Positions 2,932 to 29,729 of a stretch of DNA of 32,048 nucleotides are shown here, in pieces. The stretch covers positions 1-32,048 of the forward strand of contig JAJYJK010000027.1 of assembly GCA_021789555.1 (NCBI GenBank). Reading direction: 5' to 3'. Numbering within the stretch: the stretch's first letter is position 1; each line of letters starts with the position of its first letter. The notes beneath the pieces were generated by a model. The model saw only the letters and a list, made by a program, of their open reading frames with translations, was not told the DNA's origin and did no database searches. Source of the stretch: Nitrospirota bacterium. GTDB taxonomy: Bacteria; Nitrospirota; Thermodesulfovibrionia; Thermodesulfovibrionales; JdFR-88. A program made the translations under genes and the position numbers.

Positions 2932-3022
2932 CGGCAAAGAGACCGCTTTATAATGACCTGAAGAATTTCATGCCGGGTTCTTCCGGGAGCGGGCAAAACG
3001 GGAGGTGTCCTTAAGGAGCGCC

Positions 3023-9224: not shown

Positions 9225-9911
9225 ATGAGGCCGAAGGTCAAGCCCGGCAAGGAAAGCGGGCTTTTTGAGTTCAGGGAGTGCAGGAAACTCCTCAAGGCGA
9301 CCGGAAAGAAGGCAAGAAACCTGGCGGAGTTGATGGAGCTCATCCGCACCGCCAGCGACGCCTCCATATACCATCATACCCAGGAATATTTTTTCAAGGG
9401 GCATATAGTCGAATACACAAACGATTTCGCCCAGTGGGTGGCCTCCGTTCTGGAGGCGAGGGTGCTCTCTGAAAACCTCTCGAGTATAGACCCCTTCCGG
9501 CAGAGCTCGGCCGAGGCCCTCCGCAGCGACTTTGCGAATTCGATATCCGCCTATCTGGAAAAATTCGGCGCGCCGGGCAACGTCCTGCCCGGTGAGGAGT
9601 TTTATTTCCAGGAATCCGTGACGATTGTCTTTCCGGCCGGCTTCAGAGCACTAAACCTTGCCGAGTTCCTGATGGCGATGCGCTTTGTGGATTCCCAGTC
9701 CATCTATTATCATTTTTACGAGGGCAGAAGAAGGCTCGAGGGGGTTGACGATTTTTCCAAATGGGTCGAGGCAACGCTCGGCCACAGGGACCTGGCCCTC
9801 CGGATCAGGGCGATTGACCCCTTCATGCACAGCATAGAGGGTGTAAGAGAGCATATCGTAAGCTTCGTCGAGGACGCGCTCAGGGAGGAAATCGAGGTGG
9901 GCGGCATATGA
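9225..9911 (+). CDS. DUF5752 family protein with two tandem domains
   Basis: 228 aa. It consists of two homologous halves of about 100 residues. Half 1 has F-E-F-R-E, N-L-A-E-L-M-E, S-I-Y-H-H, D-F-A-Q-W-V and I-D-P-F; half 2 has F-Y-F-Q-E, N-L-A-E-F-L-M, S-I-Y-Y-H, D-F-S-K-W-V and I-D-P-F in the same order and spacing. No signal peptide or membrane segment is seen, so it is cytoplasmic. Members called DUF5752 occur beside trehalose/glycogen genes as I recall; the biochemical role is unknown. It is the first gene of the operon and its stop overlaps the treT start (ATGA), implying coupled synthesis and perhaps physical association with TreT. A sugar-sensing or scaffold role is speculation. Confidence 0.75.
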   Translation: MRPKVKPGKESGLFEFRECRKLLKATGKKARNLAELMELIRTASDASIYHHTQEYFFKGHIVEYTNDFAQWVASVLEARVLSENLSSIDPFRQSSAEALRSDFANSISAYLEKFGAPGNVLPGEEFYFQESVTIVFPAGFRALNLAEFLMAMRFVDSQSIYYHFYEGRRRLEGVDDFSKWVEATLGHRDLALRIRAIDPFMHSIEGVREHIVSFVEDALREEIEVGGI

Positions 9912-11122
9912 TAAGCCAATACCGCGGCATCGCCCCGAAGGGGCAGCTTGAGCTGCTGAAAATCCTGGGGGAAAAATTCATGGGCAGGAGCATCCTCAAT
10001 GTGAATTCCACCAGGGCGGGCGGCGGGGTTGCGGAGCTTCTGCACCGGATAATGCCGATACTTGCCAGCATGGGGATGGATGCCCACTGGGAGGTCATCG
10101 AGGCCGACGACCGCTTCTTCGACATCACGAAAAAGATACATAACGCCCTGCAGGGCAATAAAGAGGATTTCAACGACGGGATGTGGGACCACCACTTCGA
10201 GATAAACAGGCAAAACGCGGAAAAGCTCGACCTGGCAGCGGACTTCGTCTTCATCCACGACCCGCAGCCCGCGCCCCTCATAAAATTCAGAAAACGGGGC
10301 CACTGGATATGGCGCTGCCATATAGACATGTCCACGCCGCAGCAGGATGTGGCCGGGCGCATAATGGACTATGCGCGTCTATATGAGGCCGCGGTCTTTT
10401 CAGTAGCGAAATTCGCGATGCTGCTGCCGATCCCGGAGTTTATAGTGCTCCCCTCCATAGACCCCTTGAGCGACAAGAACCGTGAGCTTGCGCCGGCTGA
10501 AATTGAAGAGACGGCCCAAAAATTCGACCTCCCGCCGGACAGGCCGATGATACTGCAGGTCTCCAGGTTCGACCGTTTCAAGGACCCGGTCGGAGTGATA
10601 AGGGCCTACCGGATAGTGAAAAAATACAACGATTGCATCCTGGTGCTCGCGGGAAGCCCCGCCAGGGACGACCCGGAGGGGGAGGCCGTGCTTGCCGAGG
10701 TGCAAAACTTCGCCGACGGCGACCCGGACATAAGGATATTGCTGCTGCCCCCCTTCAGTGACAAGGAGATTAACGCGCTGCAGAGACTGGCCACCGTAGT
10801 GTTTCAGAAATCGCTCCGGGAGGGGTTTGGGCTGACTGTCTCCGAGGCGATGTGGAAAGGCAAGCCGGTAATCGGCGGTGCCGTCGGGGGCATTCCCCAC
10901 CAGATCGTCCACGGTGTAAACGGTTTCCTCGTCTATTCGGAGGAGGGGGGCGCTTTCAGGGCGAGGCAGTATCTCAACAACGACGAGATGTTAAAGAGGA
11001 TGGGCGAGGCCGCGCGGGAACATATCAGGAACAACTTTCTCATCACCAGGCAGATCGGCGATTACCTCTCCATCTGTCTGGGGGCCGAAAGCGGCGGCAA
11101 GACGGTCATGGAGATTGGCTGA
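9908..11122 (+). CDS. treT: Trehalose synthase TreT (GT4, trehalose glycosyltransferring synthase)
   Basis: 404 aa, GT-B fold. The N-terminal V-N-S-T-R-A-G-G-G-V-A-E-L-L-H, then H-N-A-L-Q-G-N-K, F-I-H-D-P-Q-P-A-P-L-I and W-I-W-R-C-H-I-D are shared with archaeal TreT. The C-terminal domain has Q-V-S-R-F-D-R-F-K-D-P and the nucleotide-sugar binding motif E-G-F-G-L-T-V-S-E-A-M-W-K-G-K-P-V. TreT reversibly joins NDP-glucose and glucose to give trehalose in the cytoplasm. Length matches the family (about 410 aa). The start overlaps the DUF5752 stop by 4 nt, and the stop overlaps the TTG start of treZ. The nucleotide preference (UDP, ADP or GDP) cannot be read from the sequence. Confidence 0.92.
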   Translation: MISQYRGIAPKGQLELLKILGEKFMGRSILNVNSTRAGGGVAELLHRIMPILASMGMDAHWEVIEADDRFFDITKKIHNALQGNKEDFNDGMWDHHFEINRQNAEKLDLAADFVFIHDPQPAPLIKFRKRGHWIWRCHIDMSTPQQDVAGRIMDYARLYEAAVFSVAKFAMLLPIPEFIVLPSIDPLSDKNRELAPAEIEETAQKFDLPPDRPMILQVSRFDRFKDPVGVIRAYRIVKKYNDCILVLAGSPARDDPEGEAVLAEVQNFADGDPDIRILLLPPFSDKEINALQRLATVVFQKSLREGFGLTVSEAMWKGKPVIGGAVGGIPHQIVHGVNGFLVYSEEGGAFRARQYLNNDEMLKRMGEAAREHIRNNFLITRQIGDYLSICLGAESGGKTVMEIG

Positions 11123-13055
11123 GAGAGGGCCGGCCCCGGATGACTATCCCCAGGGCGCCTTTGCCGGCCGGGAAGGCGTTTTCTTTCGCGTGTGGGCGCC
11201 CAATTGCCGCGAGGTCTCGCTAAAGACCGTCTGGCCGGAAAAAGCCGTTTTACCGATGAGGCCGGCAGGGGACGGTTTTTTTGAGGTCAACGCCGCCGGG
11301 CTAAAACCAGGGGCAAGGTATTTTTACCTCCTTGACGGTGTAAAACAGAGGCCGGACCCGGCCTCCCGCTTTCAGCCGGAGGGCGTTCACGGCCCCTCGG
11401 AGGTGGTGGACCCGGCCGGCCATAAATGGCTGGATGGGGGCTGGAGAAACCGGCCCATCGGGGAGTACATCATCTATGAGCTGCATACAGGCGCATTCAC
11501 CCCGGAGGGGACATTCGGGGCGGCGGCAAAACGCATCCCGTACTTTAAGGAACTGGGCGTCACGGCGGTTGAGATAATGCCGGTGGCCCAGTTCCCCGGC
11601 CGGAGGAACTGGGGGTATGACGGCGTCTGCCCTTATGCGCCCCAAAACTCCTACGGCGGGCCGGAGGCGTTTAAATTTCTGATAGATGCGTTACACGGGG
11701 CCGGGATAGCCGTCATACTGGATGTCGTATACAACCACCTTGGGCCCGAGGGCAGTTATCTGGCCGATTACGGCCCGTATTTTACCGACACATACAAGAC
11801 GCCATGGGGAGCGGCGATAAACTATGACGGGTTTTTGAGCGATAATGTGCGCCGGTATTTCACCGGCAACGCCCTTTACTGGTTCAGGGAATTTCACATG
11901 GACGCGCTGAGACTGGACGCCGTGCACGGCATCTTCGATTCAGGCCCGAAACACATAGTAGAGGAACTAAGCGAGAAGGCCGACGCGCTTCAGAGGCGGA
12001 TGGGCAAACCGCTTTACCTCTTCATGGAGTCCGACCGTAACGACACCCGTTTCATAAGGCCCCGGACATTGGGAGGTTTCGGGGCGGACGCGCACTGGAA
12101 CGAGGATTTTCACCATGCCCTGCATGTGACGCTGACGGGCGAGAGGGACGGCTATTACATGGATTTCTCCGGGGCGGGCGATCTGTTAAAATCCTTTGCG
12201 GAGGGGTTCGTTTACACGGGACAGCATTCCATGTATAGAAGAAAAATGCACGGCAGCCCCTCGGCGGACATCCCGCCCGATAAGTTCGTGGCCTTCAGCC
12301 AGAACCACGACCAGGTGGGGAACAGGTTTCACGGCGACCGGCTTTCATACAGCCTGCCGCCCGAAAAACTGAGGCTGGCCGCCGCCCTGGTGCTGCTGGG
12401 CCCGTATATCCCCCTCATATTCATGGGAGAGGAGTACGGGGAAAAGGCGCCTTTCATGTACTTCATAAGCCATTCGGATGGACGGCTCGTCCAGGCGGTA
12501 AGGGAAGGCAGGCGCAGGGAATTCCACTGCTTCGGCTGGAAGGGGGAGCCCCCCGACCCCCAGAGCGAAGAGACCTTTTTCGGCTCGAAGATAAATCCGG
12601 AGGTGAGGGGGCAGCCCCCGCACGCGGAGTTGTTCGATTTCTACAGGAAACTCCTCCGCCTGAGACGTGAGATACCCGCTTTGAGGGCAGGCTCCAGACA
12701 GGGCATGACCGTCTGCCTCCAGCAAGACATACTGGTCGTGATGAGGCGTTTGGACAACGGGCGTTTGGACGAGGGGCGCCTGCTTGCCGCCTTCAATCTC
12801 TCCGGGCGGCCGGCCATGATTGCGCTCCCCGCAGGCCCTCACCTTCCGCTTCGCTCCTCCCTCTCCCCCGGGGAGAGGGTTGGGGTGAGGGAAGAAGGGC
12901 CGGAAATGAAAGAGTCAGGAATGAAAGAAACGGGCGGGTGGGAGGTTTTACTTCCCTTGCCCAGGGAAAGGCGGGCGGAGGATGATGGCAGGATGATGCT
13001 CGGCCCCTATGAGACGGTCCTTTTGAAATCCATCCGGGGCGGCGGCAATGGATAA
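11115..13055 (+). CDS. treZ: Malto-oligosyltrehalose trehalohydrolase TreZ (GH13)
   Basis: 646 aa from a TTG at 11115 overlapping the treT stop, with GGAG just upstream; no other start retains the N-terminal CBM48-like domain (F-F-R-V-W-A-P-N). The barrel has W-G-Y-D-G-V, D-V-V-Y-N-H-L-G-P, the nucleophile D268 in D-A-L-R-L-D-A-V, the acid E305 in F-M-E-S-D and the third acid D399 in N-H-D-Q-V-G-N. TreZ releases trehalose from maltooligosyl-trehalose made by TreY. The protein is somewhat longer than usual because residues about 574-597 come from an inserted C/G-rich palindromic repeat near the C-terminus, outside the catalytic barrel. The stop overlaps the next gene by 8 nt. Confidence 0.93.
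   Translation: MAERGPAPDDYPQGAFAGREGVFFRVWAPNCREVSLKTVWPEKAVLPMRPAGDGFFEVNAAGLKPGARYFYLLDGVKQRPDPASRFQPEGVHGPSEVVDPAGHKWLDGGWRNRPIGEYIIYELHTGAFTPEGTFGAAAKRIPYFKELGVTAVEIMPVAQFPGRRNWGYDGVCPYAPQNSYGGPEAFKFLIDALHGAGIAVILDVVYNHLGPEGSYLADYGPYFTDTYKTPWGAAINYDGFLSDNVRRYFTGNALYWFREFHMDALRLDAVHGIFDSGPKHIVEELSEKADALQRRMGKPLYLFMESDRNDTRFIRPRTLGGFGADAHWNEDFHHALHVTLTGERDGYYMDFSGAGDLLKSFAEGFVYTGQHSMYRRKMHGSPSADIPPDKFVAFSQNHDQVGNRFHGDRLSYSLPPEKLRLAAALVLLGPYIPLIFMGEEYGEKAPFMYFISHSDGRLVQAVREGRRREFHCFGWKGEPPDPQSEETFFGSKINPEVRGQPPHAELFDFYRKLLRLRREIPALRAGSRQGMTVCLQQDILVVMRRLDNGRLDEGRLLAAFNLSGRPAMIALPAGPHLPLRSSLSPGERVGVREEGPEMKESGMKETGGWEVLLPLPRERRAEDDGRMMLGPYETVLLKSIRGGGNG
12832..12895 (+). repeat. Palindromic repeat inserted in frame near the end of treZ
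   Basis: CCCTCACC...CTCCCTCTCCC and GGGGAGAGGGTTGGGGTGAGGG are complementary arms around a short centre. The stretch is read in frame as a Ser/Pro/Arg/Gly/Glu-rich segment not expected in TreZ. It is of the same family as the insert in the activase gene. Confidence 0.8.
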
Positions 13056-15507
13056 TAATAACCGCTATCTGGTCATACACGCCCATATGTACCAGCCGCC
13101 CAGGGAAAACCCCTGGCTCGAGGCCGTCGAGATACAAGACGGCGCGTATCCCTATCATGACTGGAACGAGCGCGTTACGGCGGAGAGCTACGCCCCGAAC
13201 GCCTATGCCCGCATACTCGATGAGCAGCGCAAGATCATCCGGATAGCAAACAACTACAGGAAGATAAATTTCAACTTCGGCCCTACCCTTCTTAGCTGGC
13301 TCGAGGAGCATTCAAAGCCTCTTTACGAGGCGGTCCTTGAGGCCGACAGGGCGAGCCGCCAGGAGCGTTCCGGCCACGGAAACGCCATCGCCCAGTGCTA
13401 CAACCACATGATAATGCCGCTTGCCACGAGGCGGGACAAGATAACCCAGGTCATCTGGGGCATCGAGGATTTCGTCCACCGTTTTTCGAGGCGTCCGGAG
13501 GGCATGTGGCTGCCGGAGACCGCCGTGGACACGGAGAGTTTGGAGATACTTGCCGCAAACGGCATCAAGTTCACCATATTGGCTCCGGGCCAGGCGCATT
13601 TCGTGAAACCCCCCGGCGGCACTGAATGGACGCATGCGGATGAGCGTTCGCTGGACATAAGGGTGCCTTACATGGTCAGGCTGCCCTCGGGGGCGGACAT
13701 AACGGTTTTCTTCTATGACGGCCCCGTCGCCAGGGGGGTTGCGTTCGAGGGGCTTTTGAGAAACGGGGTGCAGTTCGCGGAGCGGCTCGTGCAGATTTTC
13801 TCCGCCGGGGCAAAGGAAAATTCCTCCGGCCCTCCGGAGCTGGCCCATATCGCCACTGACGGGGAATCGTACGGGCACCACAGCCGTTTCGGGGAGATGG
13901 CCCTTGCCTACTGCCTTTACTATATCGAGAAGAACAATCTGGCGAAGATAACGAATTACGGCGAGTTCCTGGAGAAAAACCCTCCGGGCTGGGAGGCCAG
14001 AATAAAAGAAAACACCTCCTGGAGCTGCTTTCACGGGGTGGAGCGCTGGCGCTCGGATTGCGGCTGCAACACGGGCGGCCATCCGGGGTGGAACCAGCAG
14101 TGGAGGGCGCCTTTAAGAGAGGCCCTGGACTGGCTCGCCGGGGAGCTGGCCCGGAGCTTCGAGGAAAAGGGCGCGGCCCTTTTCAAGGACCCCTGGCTGG
14201 CCAGGGACCGCTACATAGAGGTGATCCTGGAGCGCTCCGATGAAAACACGGCCAGGTTCCTGGGCGAACACGCCGTAAAAGAGCTCTCCCCCCGGCAGCG
14301 GCTGGAGGCGATAAAGCTCCTGGAGATGCAGAGGCACGGCATGCTTATGTTCACTAGCTGCGGATGGTTCTTCGATGATATCTCCGGCATCGAGAGCCTC
14401 CAGGTGCTCCAGTACGCGGGCCGGGCCATTCAGCTGCATGAGAACCTCTGCGGCGGGGGACTCGAGGGGCCCTTTCTCCGGATACTTTCAAAGGCCAAAA
14501 GCAACGTCAGGAAGGCCGGCGACGGGGCCGGGCTTTACAACAAAGAGGTGAAGACAAAGGCCATCGATCTGGACAAGGTGTCGGTCCACTACGCCATAAG
14601 CTCCCTCTATGAGGATTACGCCCAAGTGCAGGGCCTTTACTGTTATGACGTGACAAGGCTGGGTTACAGGAAATTCGAGGAGGCCCAGGCGAGGCTCGCC
14701 GTCGGCGCGATAAATATCCGCTGCAGGATAACCGGGGAGGAGGGCGTAAAACGGTTTGCCGCCATGAAGACGGGCAGCTACGATATAAGCTGCGCGCTTT
14801 TGTCCCCTGGGAAAGAGGGGGAGTTCGAGGAATTCAAAAAAACCCTTTCCGGGCAGTTCCTGGGAGGGGATTTCGACGGCGCCCTGCGTGTAATGGACCG
14901 GTATGCGGGAGGCGTAATGTATTCCCTGAAAGACCTCTTCAGGGACGAGCAGAGAGAGATATTGTCCATAACGATGAAGGAGGGGATCGAAGAGGCCAGG
15001 CGCGTCTACAGGCGCATGTACTGGCAGGACCGCTTCCTGATGGCGCTCCTCAGGGATTTTGGCGCGCCCATTCCGAGGATTTTTCTGGCCACGGCTGAAT
15101 TCGCCCTTGGCTACGAACTCATGAAGGCCATTGAAGATGGGCCGGGAAATATGGAAAAGGCCGTGGAGCTCTACAGCGAGCTGACGGACTGGGGACTCCA
15201 GCCCGACCAGGTGGAACTTGAACTGCTCCTTCGCAGAAAACTTCTCGCCCTGTTTGAGCAACTGGAGGGAAAACCGGACCTGGATGGAGTGGAAAGGCTC
15301 AAGGGGCTTTTGAAATTTGCCGTTATGCTGCCCTTCACGGTCAATCTATGGGAGGGGCAAAACAAATACTACGAGATGTCCCGTTCCCTTTACCGCAAGA
15401 TGCGCGAGAGGCGGGACGATGAGGCGGCAAGGTGGGCCGGGGAGTTCAGGGAACTGGGCAAGGACCTCTATTTCAATACCGATGAGGTGTTCCATGGGGA
15501 ACACTGA
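13048..15507 (+). CDS. GH57 alpha-glucan-active enzyme with DUF3536
   Basis: 819 aa. The GH57 (beta/alpha)7 barrel forms the N-terminal part: motif 1 H-M-Y-Q-P-P (residues 13-18), G-M-W-L-P-E-T with a likely catalytic Glu near 157, and A-T-D-G-E-S-Y-G-H-H with a likely catalytic Asp near 271. The rest is a long DUF3536 helical region. GH57 enzymes act on alpha-1,4 or alpha-1,6 glucans as amylases, glucanotransferases or branching enzymes. DUF3536 members are uncharacterised to my knowledge, so the reaction is open; context suggests it trims or supplies maltodextrin for TreY/TreZ. No signal peptide, so cytoplasmic. It overlaps treZ by 8 nt and treY by 14 nt. Confidence 0.88.
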   Translation: MDNNNRYLVIHAHMYQPPRENPWLEAVEIQDGAYPYHDWNERVTAESYAPNAYARILDEQRKIIRIANNYRKINFNFGPTLLSWLEEHSKPLYEAVLEADRASRQERSGHGNAIAQCYNHMIMPLATRRDKITQVIWGIEDFVHRFSRRPEGMWLPETAVDTESLEILAANGIKFTILAPGQAHFVKPPGGTEWTHADERSLDIRVPYMVRLPSGADITVFFYDGPVARGVAFEGLLRNGVQFAERLVQIFSAGAKENSSGPPELAHIATDGESYGHHSRFGEMALAYCLYYIEKNNLAKITNYGEFLEKNPPGWEARIKENTSWSCFHGVERWRSDCGCNTGGHPGWNQQWRAPLREALDWLAGELARSFEEKGAALFKDPWLARDRYIEVILERSDENTARFLGEHAVKELSPRQRLEAIKLLEMQRHGMLMFTSCGWFFDDISGIESLQVLQYAGRAIQLHENLCGGGLEGPFLRILSKAKSNVRKAGDGAGLYNKEVKTKAIDLDKVSVHYAISSLYEDYAQVQGLYCYDVTRLGYRKFEEAQARLAVGAINIRCRITGEEGVKRFAAMKTGSYDISCALLSPGKEGEFEEFKKTLSGQFLGGDFDGALRVMDRYAGGVMYSLKDLFRDEQREILSITMKEGIEEARRVYRRMYWQDRFLMALLRDFGAPIPRIFLATAEFALGYELMKAIEDGPGNMEKAVELYSELTDWGLQPDQVELELLLRRKLLALFEQLEGKPDLDGVERLKGLLKFAVMLPFTVNLWEGQNKYYEMSRSLYRKMRERRDDEAARWAGEFRELGKDLYFNTDEVFHGEH

Positions 15508-18457
15508 AGAGGCCGCCGGCGTCCCCGCCATACCGGCGAGCACCTACAGGCTCCAGTTCAACCGGCTGCTGACCTTCGAGATGGCGAGGCGCATCGTGCC
15601 ATACCTGCAAGAACTGGGGATTACCTGCATCTATTGTTCGCCGTATTTCAAATCCCTGCCCGGCAGCCTGCACGGCTATGACATAATCAGGTACGATGAG
15701 CTGAACCCGGAGGTCGGCACGGCCGAGGAGTACGGGCAGTTCACCGGGGAGCTGTCCCGGCGCGGGATGCAGCAGATACTGGACATCGTGCCGCACCACA
15801 TGTGCATCCTGGGCGACAACCCCTGGTGGCAGAGCGTCCTTGAAAACGGACAAAGCTCCCCGTATGCGTCTTTTTTCGATATAGACTGGTCGCCGCCCCT
15901 CGAGGTCCTGAAGGGAAAGGTGCTCCTGCCGATCCTGGCGGACCAGTACGGGAAGGTGCTCGAGTCCGGAGAAATCAGGCTGGACTTCAAGGACGGGGCG
16001 TTTTTCATAGCCTGCAACAATAACCGCCTGCCCGTCGAGCCCCGTTCCTATGAGCTTGTCTTGAGGCGCGGGGTGGAGGAGCTTGAAAAGGAAATCCCCG
16101 AGAGCGCGGAATTCCAGGAGCTGATGAGCATAATTACCGCCCTCAGCCACCTCCCGGAGGCCGCCGAGACGGACCCGGAGAAAAAGAGGGAGCGAAACAG
16201 GGAGAAAGAGATCATAAAGCGGCGGCTCGCGGCGCTCCATGAATCCTCCGGCCACATAAGGCGGTTCCTGCAGGACAACATAAGGGTTTTTAACGGCGCG
16301 AAGGGCGACCGACGCAGTTTCGATCCCATGGACGGGCTTGTTTCCAGGCAGCCCTACAGGCTGTCCTTCTGGATGGTCGCCACCGACGAGATAAATTACC
16401 GCAGGTTCTTCGATATAAACGAGCTGGCGGCAATCCGGGTGGAGCAGCCGGAGGTGTTCAATGAAAGTCACCGGTTTGTCCTTGAGCTTATAAGACAGGG
16501 GAAAGTGACCGGCTTGCGGGTGGACCACCTGGACGGCCTCTATAACCCCGCCGAATACCTGCGGACCCTGCAGGAGAAGGCCTTCCTCGCCCGCATACCC
16601 GAGGATGTCCCTGAGGCCGAAAGGCAGGCCCTGGCGCAGTCCATTGAAAAGGGGATCATGAAGACGCCCCCCGCCATCCCGTTTTATATAGTGGGCGAGA
16701 AGATACTCCAGAAGGGGGAGCGGATACCGGAGGACTGGCCCATATTCGGCACGACCGGCTATGCGTTCATGAATTCCCTGAACGGGCTCTTCGTAAGGGG
16801 AGATAACGAAAAAATCATGGACGATATCTATTTCCGGTTTGCTGGCGGGAAGGTAAATTTCTCCGGGCTCCAATACCAGGCAAAAAAACTCATACTGGTG
16901 TCTTCCATGTCCGCGGAGGTAAACATCCTGGGCCACCGGCTCTACATGCTGGCCCAGAAATCGAGGCTCACGAGGGATTTCACCTTTCCGTCTCTCACGA
17001 AGGCGCTCTCCGAGGTCATCGCCTGCTTCCCGGTTTACAGGACCTACATAAGCTCCTCAGGCGTGACGGACAGGGACCGGCGTTACATAGAACAGGCCGT
17101 AAACAGGGCCAAGAGGCTGAACCCGAGCGTGAGCAACCAGATATTCCAGTTCATAAGGCAGGTGCTGGCGCTTGAATACGCCGAAGGGCTTTCCCCGGAG
17201 GAGAAGGCCGGGTGGTTCGACTTCGCGATGAGGTTCCAGCAGCAGACGGGGCCGGTAATGGCGAAGGGGATCGAGGACACGGCCTTTTACGTCTATAACA
17301 GACTGCTCTCCCTCAACGAGGTGGGCGGCTCGCCCGGCATCTTCGGCACCCCGGTTGAGACCTTTCACGGACAGAACATAGAGAGGAACAAATACTGGCC
17401 TTTTTCGCTTATCTCCACATCCACCCACGATTCCAAAAGGAGCGAGGACGTGCGCGCGCGGATAAACGTCCTTACCGAGATGCCCCGCGCCTGGCGCGAC
17501 GCCATTTCCAGATGGAAGCGGGCCAACAGGAAGAAAAAACCCTCCGTCGAAGGAAAGCCCGTCCCCGACAATAACGACGAGTATCATCTCTATCAGGTCA
17601 TGGTCGGCGTCTGGCCGCCAACCCCCCCGGATAATGAAGGGTTGGCCGATATGCGGCAGCGGATAAAACAGTACATGCTGAAGGCCGTGCGGGAGGCCAA
17701 GGTCAATACAAGCTGGATAAGCCCAAACAAGGAATATGAAGACGCGCTGAACACCTTTATAGACCGCATCCTTGGCCCCGCAGGCCATCATGGTCCCGCA
17801 GACGCCTTTTTGGGGGAGTTTACGGCCTTCTCGAGGACGGTCGCCTGGTACGGGATGCTAAACGGTCTTAGCCAGGTGCTCTTGAAGGCGGCAAGCCCGG
17901 GGGTGCCGGATTTCTACCAGGGCACGGAATTTTGGACGCTTTCCCTGGTGGACCCCGACAACCGCCGCGAGGTCGATTACGGGGCGAGGTCAAAGCTGCT
18001 CGAAGAGCTCAAGGCAAGGGAGGGCTCCCTGGGGAAGGTTGCACTTTGCCGTGAGCTGCTGGCGAATATGCAGGATTCCCGGGTAAAACTCTATGTCACC
18101 TGGAAGGCGCTTAATTTCAGGAAGGTTTTCCGGGATGTTTTTTCGGCAGGCCAGTACATCCCGCTTGAGTCCGGGGGGCAGATGAGACAGCACCTGTGCG
18201 CCTTCCTGAGAAAAGACGGGGGGAGCGTGATGGTTTGCGCCCCGAGGTTTTTCGTGGGGCTCGGGGCGCCGGGCAATGTTCCGACCGGCGAGGCCGTCTG
18301 GAAAGACACATTCGTGGCGCTGCCGGCCCCGATGAAATTCAAGGATGCCTTTACGGACAGGGTGGTGGCCGCAACGGAGATAAACGGCAGGCACGTCATA
18401 CCGCTAAAGGACCTCTTCAGCGATTTTCCCCTGTTTCTCGCAAACGAGACGGCATGA
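15494..18457 (+). CDS. treY: Malto-oligosyltrehalose synthase TreY (GH13)
   Basis: 987 aa from the ATG at 15494, which has GAGGTG 5 nt upstream; the frame is open much further up, but that part lies in the GH57 gene. P-A-S-T-Y-R-L-Q-F at residues 14-22 is the TreY hallmark. D344 in G-L-R-V-D-H-L-D-G-L is the nucleophile, E402 in Y-I-V-G-E-K-I the acid, and S-T-H-D-S-K-R-S-E-D-V supplies the third acid. P-G-V-P-D-F-Y-Q-G-T-E closes the barrel. TreY converts the reducing-end alpha-1,4 bond of maltodextrin to alpha,alpha-1,1, giving the substrate of TreZ. The upper end of family length reflects a large lid insertion with charged helices around residues 195-265. Confidence 0.94.
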   Translation: MGNTEEAAGVPAIPASTYRLQFNRLLTFEMARRIVPYLQELGITCIYCSPYFKSLPGSLHGYDIIRYDELNPEVGTAEEYGQFTGELSRRGMQQILDIVPHHMCILGDNPWWQSVLENGQSSPYASFFDIDWSPPLEVLKGKVLLPILADQYGKVLESGEIRLDFKDGAFFIACNNNRLPVEPRSYELVLRRGVEELEKEIPESAEFQELMSIITALSHLPEAAETDPEKKRERNREKEIIKRRLAALHESSGHIRRFLQDNIRVFNGAKGDRRSFDPMDGLVSRQPYRLSFWMVATDEINYRRFFDINELAAIRVEQPEVFNESHRFVLELIRQGKVTGLRVDHLDGLYNPAEYLRTLQEKAFLARIPEDVPEAERQALAQSIEKGIMKTPPAIPFYIVGEKILQKGERIPEDWPIFGTTGYAFMNSLNGLFVRGDNEKIMDDIYFRFAGGKVNFSGLQYQAKKLILVSSMSAEVNILGHRLYMLAQKSRLTRDFTFPSLTKALSEVIACFPVYRTYISSSGVTDRDRRYIEQAVNRAKRLNPSVSNQIFQFIRQVLALEYAEGLSPEEKAGWFDFAMRFQQQTGPVMAKGIEDTAFYVYNRLLSLNEVGGSPGIFGTPVETFHGQNIERNKYWPFSLISTSTHDSKRSEDVRARINVLTEMPRAWRDAISRWKRANRKKKPSVEGKPVPDNNDEYHLYQVMVGVWPPTPPDNEGLADMRQRIKQYMLKAVREAKVNTSWISPNKEYEDALNTFIDRILGPAGHHGPADAFLGEFTAFSRTVAWYGMLNGLSQVLLKAASPGVPDFYQGTEFWTLSLVDPDNRREVDYGARSKLLEELKAREGSLGKVALCRELLANMQDSRVKLYVTWKALNFRKVFRDVFSAGQYIPLESGGQMRQHLCAFLRKDGGSVMVCAPRFFVGLGAPGNVPTGEAVWKDTFVALPAPMKFKDAFTDRVVAATEINGRHVIPLKDLFSDFPLFLANETA

Positions 18458-18512
18458 ATGGATGCCGGGGTAAAATCAAAAATCCTCCAAACGGGGTAAT
18501 ATAGACCGGGTA

Positions 18513-20666
18513 ATGGAAGAATCGCTGGTCCATGAGCTTGCCCGGCTGGCGGGCGTCATGCCCTATTATTTCGATATGTGGGGCAACCGCCACGAAGTCT
18601 CTGTCGAGACCAAGAAGGCCCTCCTGAAGGCGATGGGCTTTCAGGCGGACCGCGGGAAGAGTCTCAGGCGGGAGATTGAAAAAAGGCTTTCCCCCCCGGT
18701 GCTTGAGCCCTCGATAGTCGCACGGGAAGACGTCGCGATAAATATACCCCTTTTCCTTCCCTCCTTTGCGGATGAGGCGGGTTTCCGCCTCTGTCTTGAA
18801 GACGAGAAAAAGAGCGTGGAAAAATTCTCCATCCGGCGCGCCCCGGAAGAGGTGCTGGATGCGCCCGGCGGAAGATACGGCAAATACGTCCTTCCACTGG
18901 GTCCGCTTAAAGAGGGCTACTATAGTCTTTCGGTCGCCGCGTCTTTCCGCGGCAGGAGGATAAAAGCGGGCTGCTTTCTGATAGTCACGCGGGGCGAGTG
19001 TTTCCTTCCTGACGGATACGGCAGGGCCTGGGGGATGACGCTCGCCCTGCATGAAATCCGCTCCGGCGGCAACTGGGGCATCGGGGATTTCAGGGATCTT
19101 AGGGCCCTTATCGACTGGATTTCGGGACTGGGAGGGGATTTCGCGGGCATACTGCCGCTCCATGACGTACCGCTGCCCGACAGGGTAAGCCCGTATTCGC
19201 CGCTGAGCAGGCTTTACCGTAACTGCCTGTTTCTGGACCTGGAAGGGGCGCCGGAGTTCGCTTCAATTAAAAATAAAAACAAAAAAGAGGCCGGGCCGGC
19301 CCTCGCGCGGGAGATAGCATCGCTCAGGCGCGCCAAATACGTGGATTACGCGGGGGTTTACGCCCTGAAGCAGCGCGTCCTCAGGCAGATGTTCCGGATA
19401 TTTTACAAGAAGCATTATCTGAAGCGCACCGAGAGGGGCCGGGCCCTTTCGACATTCAAAAAAAGGCAGGGGCAAAGCCTCCTGGACTATGCGACTTTCA
19501 TGGCCCTGGGCGAGGTTTTCGGGCAGGGCTGGAGGAACTGGCCCCCCGATTTCAGGGACCCGGACGGCCAGGCGGTGCGGAAATTCAGGAGGCGGGAGCC
19601 TCAGAGGGTCCTCTTTCATATATACGTCCAGTGGCTCATCGAAGGGCAACTAGGTGCACTCGCGCGGCGCGCGGCCGCGGACGGGATGCGGGCCGGCCTT
19701 TATTTCGACCTCGCCGTGGGGGTCATCGGCGGCGGTGCGGACGAATGGGGTTTCAAGGACTCATTCGCAATCGGGGCGGCCGCGGGCGCCCCGCCCGATG
19801 AATTCAACAGGGGGGGGCAGAACTGGGGTTTTTCTCCCTTCCTGCCCGAAAAGATGCGTGAAAACGGGTTTCGGATTTTCATCAAGACCATCCGCAAGAA
19901 CCTTGAGCATGCGGGGATGCTGAGGATTGACCATGCCCTGGGCCTCTTCCGGCTGTTCTGGATTCCGGAGGGCATGAAGCCCGTGGAAGGGGCATATGTG
20001 AAATACCCTTCGGAGGAGCTTTTGGCCATCCTGGCAATCGAAAGCAGGAGGGCGAAGGCGATAATCATAGCTGAAGACCTGGGGACGGTCGAGCCCGGCG
20101 TGCGCGAGGCCCTGATGGGCAGGAAGATGCTCTCCTACAGGCTTTTTTACTACGAGAGGCTCTACCCCTCGCCCGCGCTCACGCCGCCCGGGCAATATCC
20201 CCCGCGCGCCTTTTGCGCCGTCAACACCCATGACCTGCCGACCCTTTATGGATATTGGGCGGAAAAGGACATCGAGGTAAAACGCTCTTTATCGCTTTAT
20301 CCCTCGGAGCAGGCCCATATGGACGACCTTGCCGCGAGGAGAAGGGACAAGGAAATAATCATGGACACCTTGAAAAGAGAGGGGCTTATCCCGGATAATT
20401 ATACGATACCCGGCAAAATGAACGAAGAACTCATGCTTGCCATATACAGGCACCTGGGCAGGACGCCCTGCCTTTTCGTCGGTATGAGCCTTGAAGACTG
20501 GCTCCGGTCCGAGGAGCAGCCCAACCTGCCCGGCACGACGGACGCATATCCCAACTGGAGAATCAAGACCCCGGCCCCGCTTGAGTCTTTCATCGGCAAA
20601 GGGGGGGAGTTTTTTGCCAGGGCCTTTACGGATGAGGGCAGGGGGAGGGGAGGCAGGGGGCAGTGA
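18513..20666 (+). CDS. malQ: 4-alpha-glucanotransferase MalQ (GH77)
   Basis: 717 aa, about the size of E. coli MalQ, and with a similar extra N-terminal module (about residues 1-160). Catalytic residues: D473 (nucleophile) in L-R-I-D-H-A-L-G-L, E521 (acid) in I-I-A-E-D-L-G-T-V, and D574 in N-T-H-D-L-P-T. MalQ disproportionates maltodextrins in the cytoplasm and frees glucose, which could feed TreT while longer chains go to TreY. A 55-nt gap separates it from treY, the widest in this operon, and its ATG has no strong ribosome site. The stop overlaps the lgt start. Confidence 0.94.
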   Translation: MEESLVHELARLAGVMPYYFDMWGNRHEVSVETKKALLKAMGFQADRGKSLRREIEKRLSPPVLEPSIVAREDVAINIPLFLPSFADEAGFRLCLEDEKKSVEKFSIRRAPEEVLDAPGGRYGKYVLPLGPLKEGYYSLSVAASFRGRRIKAGCFLIVTRGECFLPDGYGRAWGMTLALHEIRSGGNWGIGDFRDLRALIDWISGLGGDFAGILPLHDVPLPDRVSPYSPLSRLYRNCLFLDLEGAPEFASIKNKNKKEAGPALAREIASLRRAKYVDYAGVYALKQRVLRQMFRIFYKKHYLKRTERGRALSTFKKRQGQSLLDYATFMALGEVFGQGWRNWPPDFRDPDGQAVRKFRRREPQRVLFHIYVQWLIEGQLGALARRAAADGMRAGLYFDLAVGVIGGGADEWGFKDSFAIGAAAGAPPDEFNRGGQNWGFSPFLPEKMRENGFRIFIKTIRKNLEHAGMLRIDHALGLFRLFWIPEGMKPVEGAYVKYPSEELLAILAIESRRAKAIIIAEDLGTVEPGVREALMGRKMLSYRLFYYERLYPSPALTPPGQYPPRAFCAVNTHDLPTLYGYWAEKDIEVKRSLSLYPSEQAHMDDLAARRRDKEIIMDTLKREGLIPDNYTIPGKMNEELMLAIYRHLGRTPCLFVGMSLEDWLRSEEQPNLPGTTDAYPNWRIKTPAPLESFIGKGGEFFARAFTDEGRGRGGRGQ

Positions 20667-24940: not shown

Positions 24941-24979
24941 TTAACACATGAATATAAATACGGCAGGGAGGTGATAAGG

Positions 24980-25348
24980 ATGCCGGAGGGAAAGGAAAAG
25001 ACGTTTACGCTGTACCTGGCCAGTTCGCCCTATTCCTATGAGAACGCCTACACGGCGGCAAGGATTGCCGGGGCCGCCCTTGAGAAGGGGCACAAGGTGA
25101 ACCTCATAGCCTCAGGGGACGGGGTGTATTGCTTTTTGAAGGGGCAGAAGGCAAAGGGGATAATGAATGCCGTGGAAAAGTTCTCCTCGCTTATATCGAA
25201 AGGGCTGAAGGTCTACCTCTGAGGGGGCTGTCTGAACTTCCGCCGTGCGGCGAAAGACGACTACATTGAGGGCGCGGAGGTGGGCTCGATGAAAGGCCTC
25301 TTTAAGACGATGCGCGAGACCGACGTATGGCTGAATCTGGGGGCATAG
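24980..25348 (+). CDS. dsrE: DsrE/TusD-family sulfurtransferase with UGA-encoded selenocysteine (Sec81)
   Basis: 122 aa if the TGA at 25220-25222 is read as selenocysteine; 80 aa if it stops. The ATG at 24980 follows GGAGGTG. The first part has the DsrE/TusD fold start (S-S-P-Y-S-Y-E-N-A-Y-T-A-A-R-I-A) and G-D-G-V-Y. Then comes G-L-K-V-Y-L-[UGA]-G-G-C-L, exactly where DsrE/TusD proteins have V-Y-x-C-x-x-C-x with the catalytic cysteine (Cys78 of E. coli TusD and A. vinosum DsrE). After the TGA the same frame encodes the remaining family C-terminus (D-Y-I-E-G-A-E-V-G-S-M, then D-V-W-L-N-L-G-A) and ends in TAG. This gives a U-x-x-C redox motif (Sec81, Cys84). DsrE carries persulfide sulfur as part of a DsrE2F2H2 hexamer; dsrF and dsrH follow. 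A nonsense mutation is the alternative, but without the C-terminus the protein lacks its active site. Confidence 0.87.
25220..25256 (+). promoter_or_regulatory. UGA codon and bacterial SECIS-like hairpin
   Basis: The TGA (25220-25222) is followed after 14 nt by an 8-position stem, CTTCCGCC (25237-25244) with GGCGAAAG (25249-25256). One C-A mismatch is present and the loop is GTGC. The loop starts 22 nt after the TGA with G first and T second. Bacterial SECIS elements bound by SelB lie within the coding sequence shortly after the UGA and need a G in the first positions of a small apical loop, which fits. Judged by eye, not by a folding program. Confidence 0.7.
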
Positions 25349-25361
25349 GAGGTTTTGACCG

Positions 25362-25712
25362 ATGAAAGTAGGGATGATACTCAGGAGGCCGCCTTACGGC
25401 GATATAAATGCCGCCGAGGCCGTGAGGCATGCGCTGGGGGCCGTCTCGGATGACCTTGGCGTCTCTTTATTGCTGCTTGACGGCGGGGCCCTTCTGGCGC
25501 TCAAGGGCCAGGACGAGGGGCAAACGGAATACACCAACCTCGGGGCCGTCTTGAAGGACTGCATCGAGATGGGCGTGGAGGTCTTCGCGGACGAAGGGTT
25601 TTTAAAGGGGTGTAACATCGCCGCCGCAGACCTCGTTGAAGGCGTAAAGCCCGCGGATTCAAAAATGATATCCGCCCGGCTGCGGGCTTCCGACAAGATA
25701 ATGATCTTTTAA
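25362..25712 (+). CDS. dsrF: DsrF/TusC-like subunit
   Basis: 116 aa; AGGAGG, overlapping the end of dsrE, lies 10 nt before the ATG. The N-terminal M-I-L-R-R-P-P-Y-G-D-I-N-A-A-E-A-V-R-H-A-L is the DsrF/TusC signature, followed by L-L-L-D-G-G-A-L-L-A-L-K-G-Q. In DsrEFH and TusBCD this subunit has no known catalytic cysteine and completes the hexamer. This one has two cysteines (D-C-I-E and K-G-C-N), not in a family active-site position I know. Between dsrE and dsrH with gaps of 13 and 19 nt, it is certainly cotranscribed. Confidence 0.88.
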   Translation: MKVGMILRRPPYGDINAAEAVRHALGAVSDDLGVSLLLLDGGALLALKGQDEGQTEYTNLGAVLKDCIEMGVEVFADEGFLKGCNIAAADLVEGVKPADSKMISARLRASDKIMIF

Positions 25713-25731: not shown

Positions 25732-26010
25732 ATGATAATAATCGTAAAAAGCGCCCCGGACACGCCGGATGGCAGAAAGGGCATTGAGCTGGCCTCCGGG
25801 ATGGGAGCGGACCTTGTGCTGATCCAAAACGGGCTCTATTTTGCCGGCTCGGATGTGTTGCAGGGTTTCGCCGGAAAGATATTCGCCCTTGAAGATGACG
25901 GAAGGCTTAGGGGCATCCGGCTCGAAAAGGGCAGCGGGATTGAGGCCATAGACTATGATGCGTTTGTTGATCTGGCGGCGGCAGAGGACCATGCAATAGG
26001 CGCCTTCTGA
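25732..26010 (+). CDS. dsrH: DsrH/TusB-like subunit lacking cysteine
   Basis: 92 aa. I-I-I-V-K-S-A-P near the N-terminus and L-V-L-I-Q-N-G-L-Y-F-A-G match the TusB/DsrH pattern (K-S-P...; L-L-x-x-D-G-V-Y-A-A), and length and position after dsrF agree. In A. vinosum DsrH a conserved Cys20 takes part in sulfur handling; this protein has no cysteine anywhere, with G-R-K-G-I-E-L-A at the corresponding place. So DsrH may be structural here, leaving chemistry to the selenocysteine of DsrE. The ribosome site GGGAGG lies 12 nt before the ATG. Confidence 0.82.
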   Translation: MIIIVKSAPDTPDGRKGIELASGMGADLVLIQNGLYFAGSDVLQGFAGKIFALEDDGRLRGIRLEKGSGIEAIDYDAFVDLAAAEDHAIGAF

Positions 26011-26108
26011 GAGTCTTTTGTTTTTTGATTGGTTTTTGATCAAAGTGGGGGGTAAAGTTTTTTAAAAAAACCGGGTAGTATTTTGACGGTATTATGGGGG
26101 ATGAGGCG

Positions 26109-27314
26109 ATGAAGAGGATAGTTGTCCTTGGGAGTTCCTTCGGCGGGCTCACCGCCGCATTCGATCTTAAAAGGTTTTTGGGCAAGGACGCCGCAATCAC
26201 CGTAGTCAGCGACGACGACAGGTTTGTCTTCCTGCCCTCCCTGCCCTGGCTGATTATGGGCCATAGGAGGCCGGAGGACATCACGCTTAAGGCGGCGGAC
26301 ATCCTGAAGCCCAGGGGGATCGATTTTCTGCACGAGGCCGCGGTCCGCGTGGAGCCCGAGGCATCGAAGGTTTTCACGGCCGCCGGAGAGAGTGGGAATG
26401 AGAGTGAAATCCCTTACGATTACCTTGTGATATCGACCGGGCCGTCTCTGGCTTTCGACGAGATACCGGGCCTCGGCCCCGATAAGGGCCACACAAACTG
26501 CACCTTCACCCTTGACCACGCCGTAAACACCCATGCCGCCTGGAAGAAAATACTCGAAGACCCAGGCCCCGTGGTGGTCGGCTCCTCGCAGGGGGTGAGC
26601 TGTTTTGGCCCCTCCTATGAGCTGGCCTATGAGATGGATGCCGAACTCAGGCGCCGCAATATGAGACACCGGGTGCCGCTGATATATCTCACATCGGAGC
26701 CCTACCTGGGCCATATGGGCGTCGGAGGTCTCGGCAATTCAAAGCGGTTCTTCGAAGACACATTCGCGGAAAGGGAGATAAAGTGCATGGTCAACCAGGC
26801 AATCGAAGAAATTGCGCCCGGCGAGGTCAGGCTGAAAGACGGCACGAAACTCCCCTTCAAGTTCGCCATGATCGCCCCGCCTTTCAAGGGGGTCCCGGCT
26901 GTGGCCCCGCTTGGAAACCCGCGCGGCTTTATCCCCGTGGACAAGCAGTACAGGCATACCAGATACAAAAACATCTTCGTGGTCGGCGTCGCCGTGGCCA
27001 TAGCCCCTCCGGAGCCCACGCCCGTGCCAACCGGCGTTCCGAAGACGGGTTTCATGACGGTGAAGATGGCAAAGACCGCCGCGGCCGTGATCAAGGCGGA
27101 GGTGAAAAACGAGACCCCGCCTTCCCCCGGAGAGCTGAACGTCGTGTGCATCATGGACATGGGCAACACCGCGGCCCTCATGAAGGGCGACCCCGTCCTG
27201 CCGCCAAGGCGAAAATCAGTTACAAAGAAGGGGGCCCAATACAAGGCGCTGAAGATCGCTTTTGAAAGGTATTTCCTCTTCAAGATGAAGCACGGATTCA
27301 GCAATCTTCCATGA
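26109..27314 (+). CDS. sqr: Sulfide:quinone oxidoreductase-type flavoprotein
   Basis: 401 aa from the ATG at 26109, which puts the FAD motif I-V-V-L-G-S-S-F-G-G-L at the N-terminus; an ATG 15 nt upstream lacks a ribosome site. The three cysteines expected of SQR are at the right spacing: C131, C165 (G-V-S-C-F-G-P-S-Y-E) and C347 (V-V-C-I-M-D-M-G), compared with 128, 160 and 356 in Acidithiobacillus. G-F-I-P-V-D-K lies in the FAD domain. The C-terminal F-E-R-Y-F-L-F-K-M-K-H-G is the amphipathic membrane anchor of the family. SQR oxidises sulfide and passes electrons to the quinone pool, leaving persulfide or polysulfide. About 100 nt after dsrH, it probably feeds or drains sulfane sulfur handled by DsrEFH. 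The subtype is not assigned. Confidence 0.85.
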   Translation: MKRIVVLGSSFGGLTAAFDLKRFLGKDAAITVVSDDDRFVFLPSLPWLIMGHRRPEDITLKAADILKPRGIDFLHEAAVRVEPEASKVFTAAGESGNESEIPYDYLVISTGPSLAFDEIPGLGPDKGHTNCTFTLDHAVNTHAAWKKILEDPGPVVVGSSQGVSCFGPSYELAYEMDAELRRRNMRHRVPLIYLTSEPYLGHMGVGGLGNSKRFFEDTFAEREIKCMVNQAIEEIAPGEVRLKDGTKLPFKFAMIAPPFKGVPAVAPLGNPRGFIPVDKQYRHTRYKNIFVVGVAVAIAPPEPTPVPTGVPKTGFMTVKMAKTAAAVIKAEVKNETPPSPGELNVVCIMDMGNTAALMKGDPVLPPRRKSVTKKGAQYKALKIAFERYFLFKMKHGFSNLP

Positions 27315-27368: not shown

Positions 27369-29729
27369 ATGCAAAAATTTTCACTTGTCCGTTTCAGTGT
27401 CGAGCACCCGAAACTGGTTGTGGTCCTGTCGGTGCTTATCACCATGCTCTTCGCAACACAGTTCCCGAAGATCAGGACGGACACCAATCCCAAGAACATG
27501 CTCCCCGCGACCTCCGATGTGCGCGTATGGAACAACGAGGTGGAAAAGACGTTCGGCCTTTACAAGGACGTCATAGTCCTTGGCATCCGCAACGAAAAGG
27601 GCGTCCTGAACGCGGCCACCCTGGCCTCGATGCAGAGGATAACGGACCGGATACTCGGGCTGAAGGGGGTCGCGGCAAGGGATGTGTCCTCATTCGGGAC
27701 AATAGACAACGTTACAATGGATCGGGCGAAGGATCGGACGGGGGACGGCGGCACGCTAGAAGTCGGCCCGCTCATGCCGGATGCGCCGAAGACCCAAACC
27801 GGCATTGATTCATTGAGGCGGGAGCTTTACGGCAACCCGCTCTTTATCGGCCGGATCATCTCCGGGGACGCGAAGATGGCCGCGATTTACGTGCCCCTGG
27901 AGAAGGGCGCCAACGGCAAACTGGTCGCCGACGCCATAAGGCGGATAGTGAGGCAGGAGGGCGGGCAAAAAGCAGGTGATGAATACTATGTCGCGGGCGA
28001 CCCGGTCGCCCGCGATACATTCGGCGTCGAGATGTTCAGGCTGATGGCAGTCTTCGCGCCCATAGCCGGCATGGTGATGTTTCTTATCCGGTATCTCATG
28101 TTCAGGGACCTCTTCCTCAGTATCACGCTCATGATGGACGCCATGATGAGCATAATATGGAGCATGGGGCTCCTTATCGGGCTTGGGTTTCCCATCCACA
28201 TCATGAGCTCGATGGCGCCGGTGTTCCTGATGGCGATTGCGACCGACAGCATGCACATCTTTAACGAATTCTACTTCCGCTTCAGGCAGCTAAGGGACAA
28301 GAAGGCGGCGATAATAGAGACGATGCGCGCGGTGAGCCGGCCGGTCCGGAATACCGCGCTGGCGACGGCGGCCGGTTTCACTGTCCTTTTATTCATGCAC
28401 ATTGTGCCCGTAAGAATTTTTGGCGGGCTGGTGGCCTTCGGCACGCTCTGCCTGAGGCTCTTCAGTTTCAGCTTCATACCCGCGATGTTTACCTTTGTGA
28501 AGGCTGAGAAGCTGGAAAAGATCGCCCGGTCGGAAGACGCGGATTCGGACAAAACGGCCCGGTTCCTGAAGAAGCTTGCCGGGTTTGGCATTCGCAAACC
28601 GGCGGCAACCGTCGTCATCGGCTTCCTGTTATTTATGGTGGCGGTCGTCGGAATAACAAAGACAAATATCAATAACAACCTTGTCGAATGGTTCAAGAAA
28701 GGCAGCGATGTGCGCGTGGCGGACACGGTAATCAACCGGTCCCTCGGCGGCACCTCCACAGGCTATATAGTATCGATCTCCAATGAAGACGGTTACATAA
28801 AAACTCCGGCAGCGATGCGCTATATCGAGGGGCTGCAAAGAGACCTGGAGAAATTGCCCGTCGTCGGCAAGACCACCTCAGTTGCGGATTACGTGAAGCG
28901 GATAAATTTCGTGCTCCACGGAAATGACCCGAAATATTTCGCGGTGCCGCCCACGGAGCAAATGATTGGACAGTATCTGTTTCTTTTCTCGATGTCCGCG
29001 AAGCCCTCGGACCTCGATAACGTGGTCGACTATCCCTTTGAGAAGGCGAACATCTGGGTCCAGCTTAAGACGTGGGACGCGCGGGCGATGAGGGACGTCA
29101 TAAGGGAGGTTGGCCGGTACAAGGCCGCGCATGCCACCCCGATGGATTTCAAGCCCGCGGGGATCGCCTACTTCAACCTGGTATGGAACAACGAGGTGCT
29201 CTGGGACATGGTGAAGGGGTTTATGCTGGCGCTTATTGTCGTATTCGCCATCCTGGCCTACGACTTCCGCTCCGTGAAATGGGCGGTTGTCGGATACATG
29301 CCGCTTCTGTTCACCATCGTCCTTATTTACGGTGTTATCGGGTTTAGCGGGAAAAACTTTGACATGCCGATATCGGTGCTCTCCACCCTTTCACTTGGCA
29401 TGGCCGTGGATTTTGCGATCCATTTTGTAAGCAGGTTCAGGCAGAGGCTCTCCGAATCCTTGCCCGCGGGGGCCGGAGGGGTCGGGAAGGCGCAGATAGC
29501 GGAGGCCCTTCTGTGGACCGCGCAGAGGCCCGGCAAGGGGATTTTGCGAAACGCCGTTCTCTTTGCATCCGCATTTTCAGTGATGCTCTTCGCGCCCCTT
29601 ACGCCCTACATCACCGTGGGGGCGTTCATTGTGAGCATGATGCTGCTTAGCGCCCTTATGACCATAATCTATCTGCCCGCGCTGATAACGCTCGGCAGCG
29701 GATGGCTCTTTAAAGGAGGGACAAGATGA
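27369..29729 (+). CDS. RND/MMPL family transporter
   Basis: 786 aa. A first membrane helix (about residues 14-33) is followed by a periplasmic loop, a helix bundle around residues 220-380, a second helix near 400 with a second large loop, and a final bundle near 620-785: the duplicated RND arrangement. Acidic residues in A-T-D-S-M-H-I-F-N-E-F and G-M-A-V-D-F-A-I-H-F-V sit where MMPL/HpnN proteins have their proton-relay positions. These exporters use the proton gradient to move lipids or hydrophobic compounds. The next two genes encode a LolA-like periplasmic protein and an outer-membrane barrel, so the three may form a lipid or hydrophobic-compound route across the envelope; substrate unknown. 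No clear ribosome site at its ATG. Confidence 0.88.
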   Translation: MQKFSLVRFSVEHPKLVVVLSVLITMLFATQFPKIRTDTNPKNMLPATSDVRVWNNEVEKTFGLYKDVIVLGIRNEKGVLNAATLASMQRITDRILGLKGVAARDVSSFGTIDNVTMDRAKDRTGDGGTLEVGPLMPDAPKTQTGIDSLRRELYGNPLFIGRIISGDAKMAAIYVPLEKGANGKLVADAIRRIVRQEGGQKAGDEYYVAGDPVARDTFGVEMFRLMAVFAPIAGMVMFLIRYLMFRDLFLSITLMMDAMMSIIWSMGLLIGLGFPIHIMSSMAPVFLMAIATDSMHIFNEFYFRFRQLRDKKAAIIETMRAVSRPVRNTALATAAGFTVLLFMHIVPVRIFGGLVAFGTLCLRLFSFSFIPAMFTFVKAEKLEKIARSEDADSDKTARFLKKLAGFGIRKPAATVVIGFLLFMVAVVGITKTNINNNLVEWFKKGSDVRVADTVINRSLGGTSTGYIVSISNEDGYIKTPAAMRYIEGLQRDLEKLPVVGKTTSVADYVKRINFVLHGNDPKYFAVPPTEQMIGQYLFLFSMSAKPSDLDNVVDYPFEKANIWVQLKTWDARAMRDVIREVGRYKAAHATPMDFKPAGIAYFNLVWNNEVLWDMVKGFMLALIVVFAILAYDFRSVKWAVVGYMPLLFTIVLIYGVIGFSGKNFDMPISVLSTLSLGMAVDFAIHFVSRFRQRLSESLPAGAGGVGKAQIAEALLWTAQRPGKGILRNAVLFASAFSVMLFAPLTPYITVGAFIVSMMLLSALMTIIYLPALITLGSGWLFKGGTR

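Follow-up and report, generated by a model that had tools for sequence, protein, structure and literature searches.

An in-frame UGA at the cysteine position of DsrE

Does the in-frame TGA of a dsrE-like gene end a short protein, or is it read as selenocysteine (Sec), and in the latter case what would a selenium-containing DsrE do next to a sulfide:quinone reductase (SQR)? The question was raised by a first-pass annotation of the window (here, the whole stretch of 32,048 nucleotides that was analyzed), which had placed a single TGA exactly at the sulfur-carrying cysteine of the DsrE family, with the C-terminus continuing in the same frame to a TAG and dsrF starting 13 nt past it. Table 1 shows the features of the locus, and these readings held. 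The frame contains one TGA, at codon 81, and a terminal TAG; its translation of 122 residues includes the motif L-U81-G-G-C84, and the distance to dsrF is as described. When dsrE was aligned with DsrE homologues, U81 sat at the DsrE Cys, including that of more distant members such as the gammaproteobacterial VVCVAAALRRG proteins, which is the arrangement (UGA where homologues carry Cys) by which bacterial selenoproteins are recognized. In profile searches the Pfam DsrE domain (PF02635; 67.8 bits against a cut-off of 22.7) spanned the TGA (residues 10 to 116; E value of 1.2e-18), and this domain together with UxxC is the makeup of a DsrE-like selenoprotein.

Table 1. Features of the dsrE locus, with positions in the window
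Feature	Position	Strand	Evidence
RBS region (cagggaggtgataagg), before the dsrE start	24964-24979	+	Read directly in the sequence
dsrE-like gene; 122 residues if UGA is Sec, 80 if UGA is a stop	24980-25348	+	Translation; Pfam DsrE
In-frame TGA, putative Sec81 of U-x-x-C	25220-25222	+	Codons of relatives; alignment with DsrE Cys
Predicted SECIS stem-loop	25238-25255	+	Covariation, invariant loop G, pair counts, synonymous constraint
Predicted SECIS stem	25238-25243 / 25250-25255	+	
Predicted SECIS apical loop (CGUGCG)	25244-25249	+	
dsrF/tusC-like gene; Asp at the position of DsrE Sec81	25362-25712	+	Pfam DsrE, 8.7e-11
dsrH/tusB-like gene; no cysteine	25732-26010	+	Pfam DsrH, 4.7e-10; translation
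Sulfide:quinone reductase gene; Cys-containing, not Sec	26094-27314	+	phmmer to 3hyv, E value of 5e-95
MMPL/RND-family membrane protein gene, often downstream in relatives	27369-29729	+	Pfam MMPL, 1.9e-21

Codon 81 across relatives

In a survey of 396 Nitrospirota genomes, ca. 95 had the TGA form (rows with GAT or GAC at this place belong to the neighboring DsrF and were left out of the DsrE counts). Codon 81 was TGA in 105 distinct proteins. Close relatives with TGC or TGT (Cys), which the first-pass annotation had suggested looking for, numbered four, and relatives with neither UGA nor Cys, which it had named as evidence to the contrary, were absent: no third residue was found among 109 distinct close DsrE relatives, gaps aside. 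Going by the codons compared, this TGA/Cys pattern is far beyond chance. All of the 28 closest relatives in the genome collection had TGA at codon 81; they are Nitrospirota or bacteria grouping with Nitrospirota, plus one Deltaproteobacteria/Myxococcota MAG. A wider search among Desulfobacterota-type relatives gave only 2 TGA forms in 395 genomes, one of which (L169) is a candidate.

As judged from the pooled differences from the window 3' of the TGA (383, 119, and 1178 at codon positions 1, 2, and 3, respectively), the dsrE region after the UGA is evolving as protein-coding sequence under purifying selection. These data bear on the possibility that dsrE is a pseudogene, reduced to an 80-aa fragment by a nonsense mutation or a sequencing error, which would fit an in-frame TGA as such and a relative (L038/G242) whose frame is broken just past the TGA. 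A random nonsense mutation had been considered improbable from the start, and the recurrence of the same TGA in so many distinct sequences, with coding evolution continuing downstream, agrees with that view. With the TGA present in ca. 100 separate assemblies, a sequencing error at this codon is excluded. Together with the SECIS covariation and the Sec machinery described below, these observations refute the pseudogene, to which we assign a very small probability.

In a tree of 118 sequences, 101 Sec proteins fell into one group whose support (93/54) is not firm and whose sister is formed by the four Cys orthologues. A separate Sec group, from three genomes of another family, was located beside a Cys relative, and the Sec label requires two changes on the tree. 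With its root drawn at the midpoint, the tree allows either direction of the Sec/Cys change.

The survey also revealed variants of the protein. A second Sec-DsrE subfamily, with the motif DIUTGC (L093 to L096, L103, and L139 to L163; 30 sequences), has the same dsrF-dsrH-sqr neighborhood. More than one TGA match was present in four genomes (G120, G272, G296, and G334), with one Sec-DsrE of each subfamily in G120, G272, and G334. A separate lineage characterized by FAUGTCLKARG (L097, L164, and L165, from G006, G016, and G025) is sister to the Cys form in G371 and has an SQR-like match close downstream. Nearly all relatives retain both U81 and C84; L131 (G316) has UGTS, with Ser replacing the second Cys of the motif. 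In L038 (at ca. 3223) and at the same place in L106 (G242), bases are missing just past the UGA and the frame is broken, by either a real loss or an assembly error.

A predicted SECIS element inside the coding sequence

A hairpin with a 6-bp stem and a 6-nt loop lies inside the dsrE coding sequence at nt 19 to 36 counted from the U of the UGA (18 nt on). The second base of the loop was G in 95 of 95 distinct sequences and the third was U in 91 of 95. Compensatory pairs were found in the stem, 24/31 being C-G, U-A, or A-U and 21/34 being U-A or C-G. Over 30 representative rows, 93% of the pairs in the structure were standard, covariation was 0.514 (against 0.208 when shuffled and at most 0.238 with slid partners), and 29 cells had changes on both sides, compared with 8.7 after shuffling. 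Constraint was visible in the codons as well. Among 60 close orthologues, those of the stem were nearly frozen (CGC for R88 in 60 of 60, CGT for R89 in 56 of 59, and GCG for A91 in 56 of 57), while the third base of most other conserved dsrE codons was almost free, and the mean relative entropy of the codons was 0.41 over the hairpin versus 0.86 outside. The four Cys orthologues kept the 5' side and had lost the 3' arm.

The copy in the window has one C-A mismatch, and its folding energy alone was no better than that of shuffled sequences (z score of -1.05). Because this single hairpin is unremarkable in energy, the case for SECIS rests on comparison, and by that comparative evidence the hairpin after the UGA is a SECIS element. 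A stem-loop of this kind shortly 3' of the UGA, its loop G conserved, is what is sought in a selenoprotein gene and is found here, the window copy alone being weak. In the DIUTGC subfamily the hairpin has the same geometry and the loop GGUCUU, which resembles the SECIS loop of Escherichia coli fdhF.

Selenocysteine machinery and decoding of the UGA

The genome to which the window belongs (2.85 Mb; 98.8% complete) was searched for the selA, selB, selC, and selD genes, as had been proposed, and contains selA, selB, selD, and a tRNA-Sec with the anticodon UCA, the set needed to call a selenoprotein. Its selD (L007, G000:C66) is itself a selenoprotein gene, with an in-frame TGA near the N terminus. 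A second tRNA-Sec candidate (C101) turned out to be a tRNA-Cys. Among Nitrospirota, selB was detected in 91 of 95 TGA-carrying genomes and in 86 of the remaining 301, with no correction for kinship (Fisher P = 4e-34). One of the four TGA genomes without selB, G310, has selA; both genes are missing from the assemblies of G041 (96% complete) and of G034 and G084 (74 to 77%), so that G041 is the exception that incompleteness does not explain.

If UGA had been reassigned throughout the genome, for example to Trp or Gly, a TGA within a conserved frame would be expected with no Sec involved. However, UGA is an ordinary stop in 10 of the 20 genes of the window and terminates some 17 to 20 of the related dsrE genes; since UGA is also a normal stop, the genetic code is not reassigned. 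The presence of Cys as the sole alternative at codon 81 and of a tRNA-Sec with a UCA anticodon also argues against reassignment, which is refuted by TGA serving as a stop in the same genes and which we hold to be even less probable than a pseudogene. From the comparative sequence data, we consider it nearly certain that the UGA is read as Sec. Sec81 would be inserted by SelB and tRNA-Sec(UCA), directed by the bacterial SECIS hairpin.

Operon context

The gene order dsrE(Sec)-dsrF-dsrH-sqr is conserved in relatives. In the two main subfamilies, dsrE was followed at each TGA locus by a DsrF-like gene, then by DsrH in nearly all loci, SQR in most, and MMPL often. The SQR shares with 3hyv the Cys of GVSCFGP and the Cys of the C-terminal CIxDxG; by this homology, the neighbor of dsrE is a genuine sulfide:quinone reductase with both catalytic Cys kept. 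Sec in this SQR, a candidate prompted by a weak match to the seleno-SQR model NF049943, was rejected. No in-frame TGA was found inside SQR in the loci checked, the only one (L012) being upstream of the start. NF049943 (type III SQR, selenoprotein subtype) is also a selenium variant in sulfide oxidation, but the SQR described here is Cys-only and scored 93 of 525 bits, far below the cut-off.

The genome has dsrA, which was present in 87 of 95 TGA genomes versus 92 of 301 others, again with no correction for kinship. A separate Cys DsrE relative was present as well in at least 23 TGA genomes, in several of them a few kilobases from dsrA. Because the Cys form coexists with it in these genomes, Sec-DsrE is a system of its own and does not simply replace the Cys form.

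Fold and active site

The predicted structure of DsrE (mean pLDDT of 81) matched YchN, the subunits of Allochromatium vinosum DsrEFH, and those of TusBCD; the closest solved sequence was YchN, which has C-x-x-C. Curated models gave low scores. The TusD/DsrE equivalog TIGR03012 reached 20.7 bits against a cut-off of 89.25, and orthology to TusD by this model was rejected; the YedF model TIGR03527 matched weakly (17.5 bits, cut-off of 110). The DsrF-like protein had 27.5 bits with the TusC model (cut-off of 94) and the DsrH-like protein had 38 bits with the TusB model (cut-off of 49). The first-pass annotation had described a full dsrEFH-sqr operon. This description stands as regards gene order and fold, with dsrE, dsrF, and dsrH adjacent and the DsrE and DsrH families represented as in a DsrEFH complex, but not as regards orthology, all three proteins being below the curated TusBCD cut-offs. 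The label DsrEFH thus fits by fold and gene order.

In A. vinosum, Cys78 of DsrE binds sulfur and donates it to DsrC, and function in vivo depends on this residue as well as on Cys20 of DsrH (PMC3397948). The essential DsrH-Cys20 is absent here, the DsrH of the window having no Cys at all, and in related DsrF the codon aligned to Sec81 is GAT or GAC. In DsrEFH type II, sulfur transfer takes place on a single DsrE residue, Cys67 (PMC13293266). The locus also departs from that type, with Sec in place of Cys67 and no adjacent tusA or yeeE in the window. Since DsrH lacks Cys and the DsrF-like protein carries Asp in place of Sec, the best candidate for sulfur carrier in the DsrEFH-like complex is Sec81.

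Proposed function

We propose that Sec81 stands in for Cys78, the residue of DsrE/TusD that carries the persulfide, with Cys84 as its partner in U-x-x-C. To judge from fold and gene order, Sec-DsrE and the DsrF-like and DsrH-like proteins probably assemble into a complex of the DsrEFH type. Sec81 would take up the sulfane sulfur made by SQR, in selenopersulfide form (Se-S), and hand it to a cytoplasmic TusA- or DsrC-type acceptor, feeding dissimilatory sulfite reductase. Cys84 could release the sulfur by Se-S bond formation, and from general selenol chemistry, selenium would be expected to speed loading and release and to resist irreversible oxidation. The explanation as a whole, a Sec-decoded DsrE with a selenopersulfide relay from SQR, seems likely to us. 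The relay function by itself is plausible, and we lean slightly toward it. It is much less certain than Sec because UxxC resembles the motif of thiol oxidoreductases and of YchN/YedF more than that of the single-Cys DsrE/TusD.

The main rival to the relay is a redox enzyme in which Sec is inserted and a selenol-thiol pair serves to reduce persulfides, polysulfides, or other products of SQR. The motif U81-G-G-C84 is of the thioredoxin-like redox type, with both residues in nearly all relatives, the closest solved sequence has C-x-x-C, and PMC1088965 places a DsrE-like protein with UxxC among thiol-dependent redox selenoproteins. However, the conserved dsrF and dsrH partners and the gene order match sulfur transferase complexes, the residue equivalent to Sec81 is the one employed by those DsrE homologues for which sulfur transfer is proven (PMC3397948, PMC13293266), and L131 has Ser for Cys84. 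A UxxC persulfide reductase is therefore possible, but we regard it as rather unlikely. Sec-DsrE might also handle selenium instead of sulfur, delivering or detoxifying selenide or selenopersulfide. The DsrE domain protein YedF is tied to selenium metabolism (PMC5322559), and its model matches weakly. Set against this are the conserved sulfide:quinone reductase gene next to dsrE and the co-occurrence with dsrA, which make this role quite improbable.

Chances appear evenly balanced that Sec-DsrEFH is a dedicated acceptor of SQR-made sulfane sulfur, beside the separate Cys-DsrEFH of the dsr cluster, that was overlooked in Nitrospirota because gene callers stop at UGA. If true, sulfide oxidation would here involve a sulfur relay based on selenium. 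The four close Cys orthologues provide natural Sec/Cys pairs for direct comparison.

Comparison with known systems

DsrE-like selenoproteins with UxxC have been known since 2005, and Sec-DsrE is therefore not a new kind. The reports by Zhang and Gladyshev of 2005, 2006, and 2008 describe them from the Sargasso Sea, GOS, and Desulfovibrio vulgaris (PMC1088965, PMC1794560, PMC2398784), and the protein also features in reviews of 2022 and 2026. The first-pass annotation had described them as proposed in metagenomic surveys, but they are an established bioinformatic family beyond metagenomics (PMC1088965, PMC1794560). Shared with those reports are the DsrE family, Sec in UxxC, and a SECIS downstream of the UGA; in the text available they deal with single genes and no operon, in contrast to the dsrE-F-H-sqr operon conserved across Nitrospirota.

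A. vinosum DsrEFH (type I) and E. coli TusBCD have the same three-gene set, fold, and carrier position (Cys78 corresponding to Sec81), whereas the proteins described here have Sec for Cys, the extra Cys84, and a DsrH without Cys20, score far below the TusD and TusC cut-offs, and are linked to sqr and not to a dsr cluster. DsrEFH type II, from cable bacteria and sulfate reducers, is common in dsrAB-bearing Nitrospirota (PMC13293266, from 2026). That survey found Cys in 99.3% of 985 genomes and ascribed the exceptions to sequencing error, and type II is linked to tusA and yeeE, while here there is Sec and a link to sqr (PMC13293266). Gene calls stopping at UGA would not be expected to capture Sec-DsrE proteins whole in such a survey. 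By implication, surveys of DsrEFH that rely on gene calling with the standard code would miss or shorten a large Nitrospirota group, with a bearing on which sulfate reducers can oxidize sulfur.

In the open-licence literature, whose silence is weak evidence, no earlier description of Sec-DsrE was found for Nitrospirota or for a dsrEFH-sqr operon, and a lineage-wide Sec-DsrEFH-SQR operon, with two versions of SECIS and often beside a second, Cys DsrE, appears to be undescribed there. DsrE-like selenoproteins, listed so far as single entries in databases, are here placed in a conserved operon with an obvious partner enzyme, which gives a concrete, testable hypothesis for their role.

Other genes of the window

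Elsewhere in the window, genes were named by reading only. Positions 9908 to 20666 hold a glycogen/trehalose-type carbohydrate block with glycosyltransferase, trehalohydrolase- and trehalose synthase-like, GH57-like, and 4-alpha-glucanotransferase-like genes. Two type IV pilin-like genes are located at 736 to 1862 on the minus strand, and a CoA-enzyme activase-like protein of 1474 aa is encoded at 3005 to 7429 on the plus strand.
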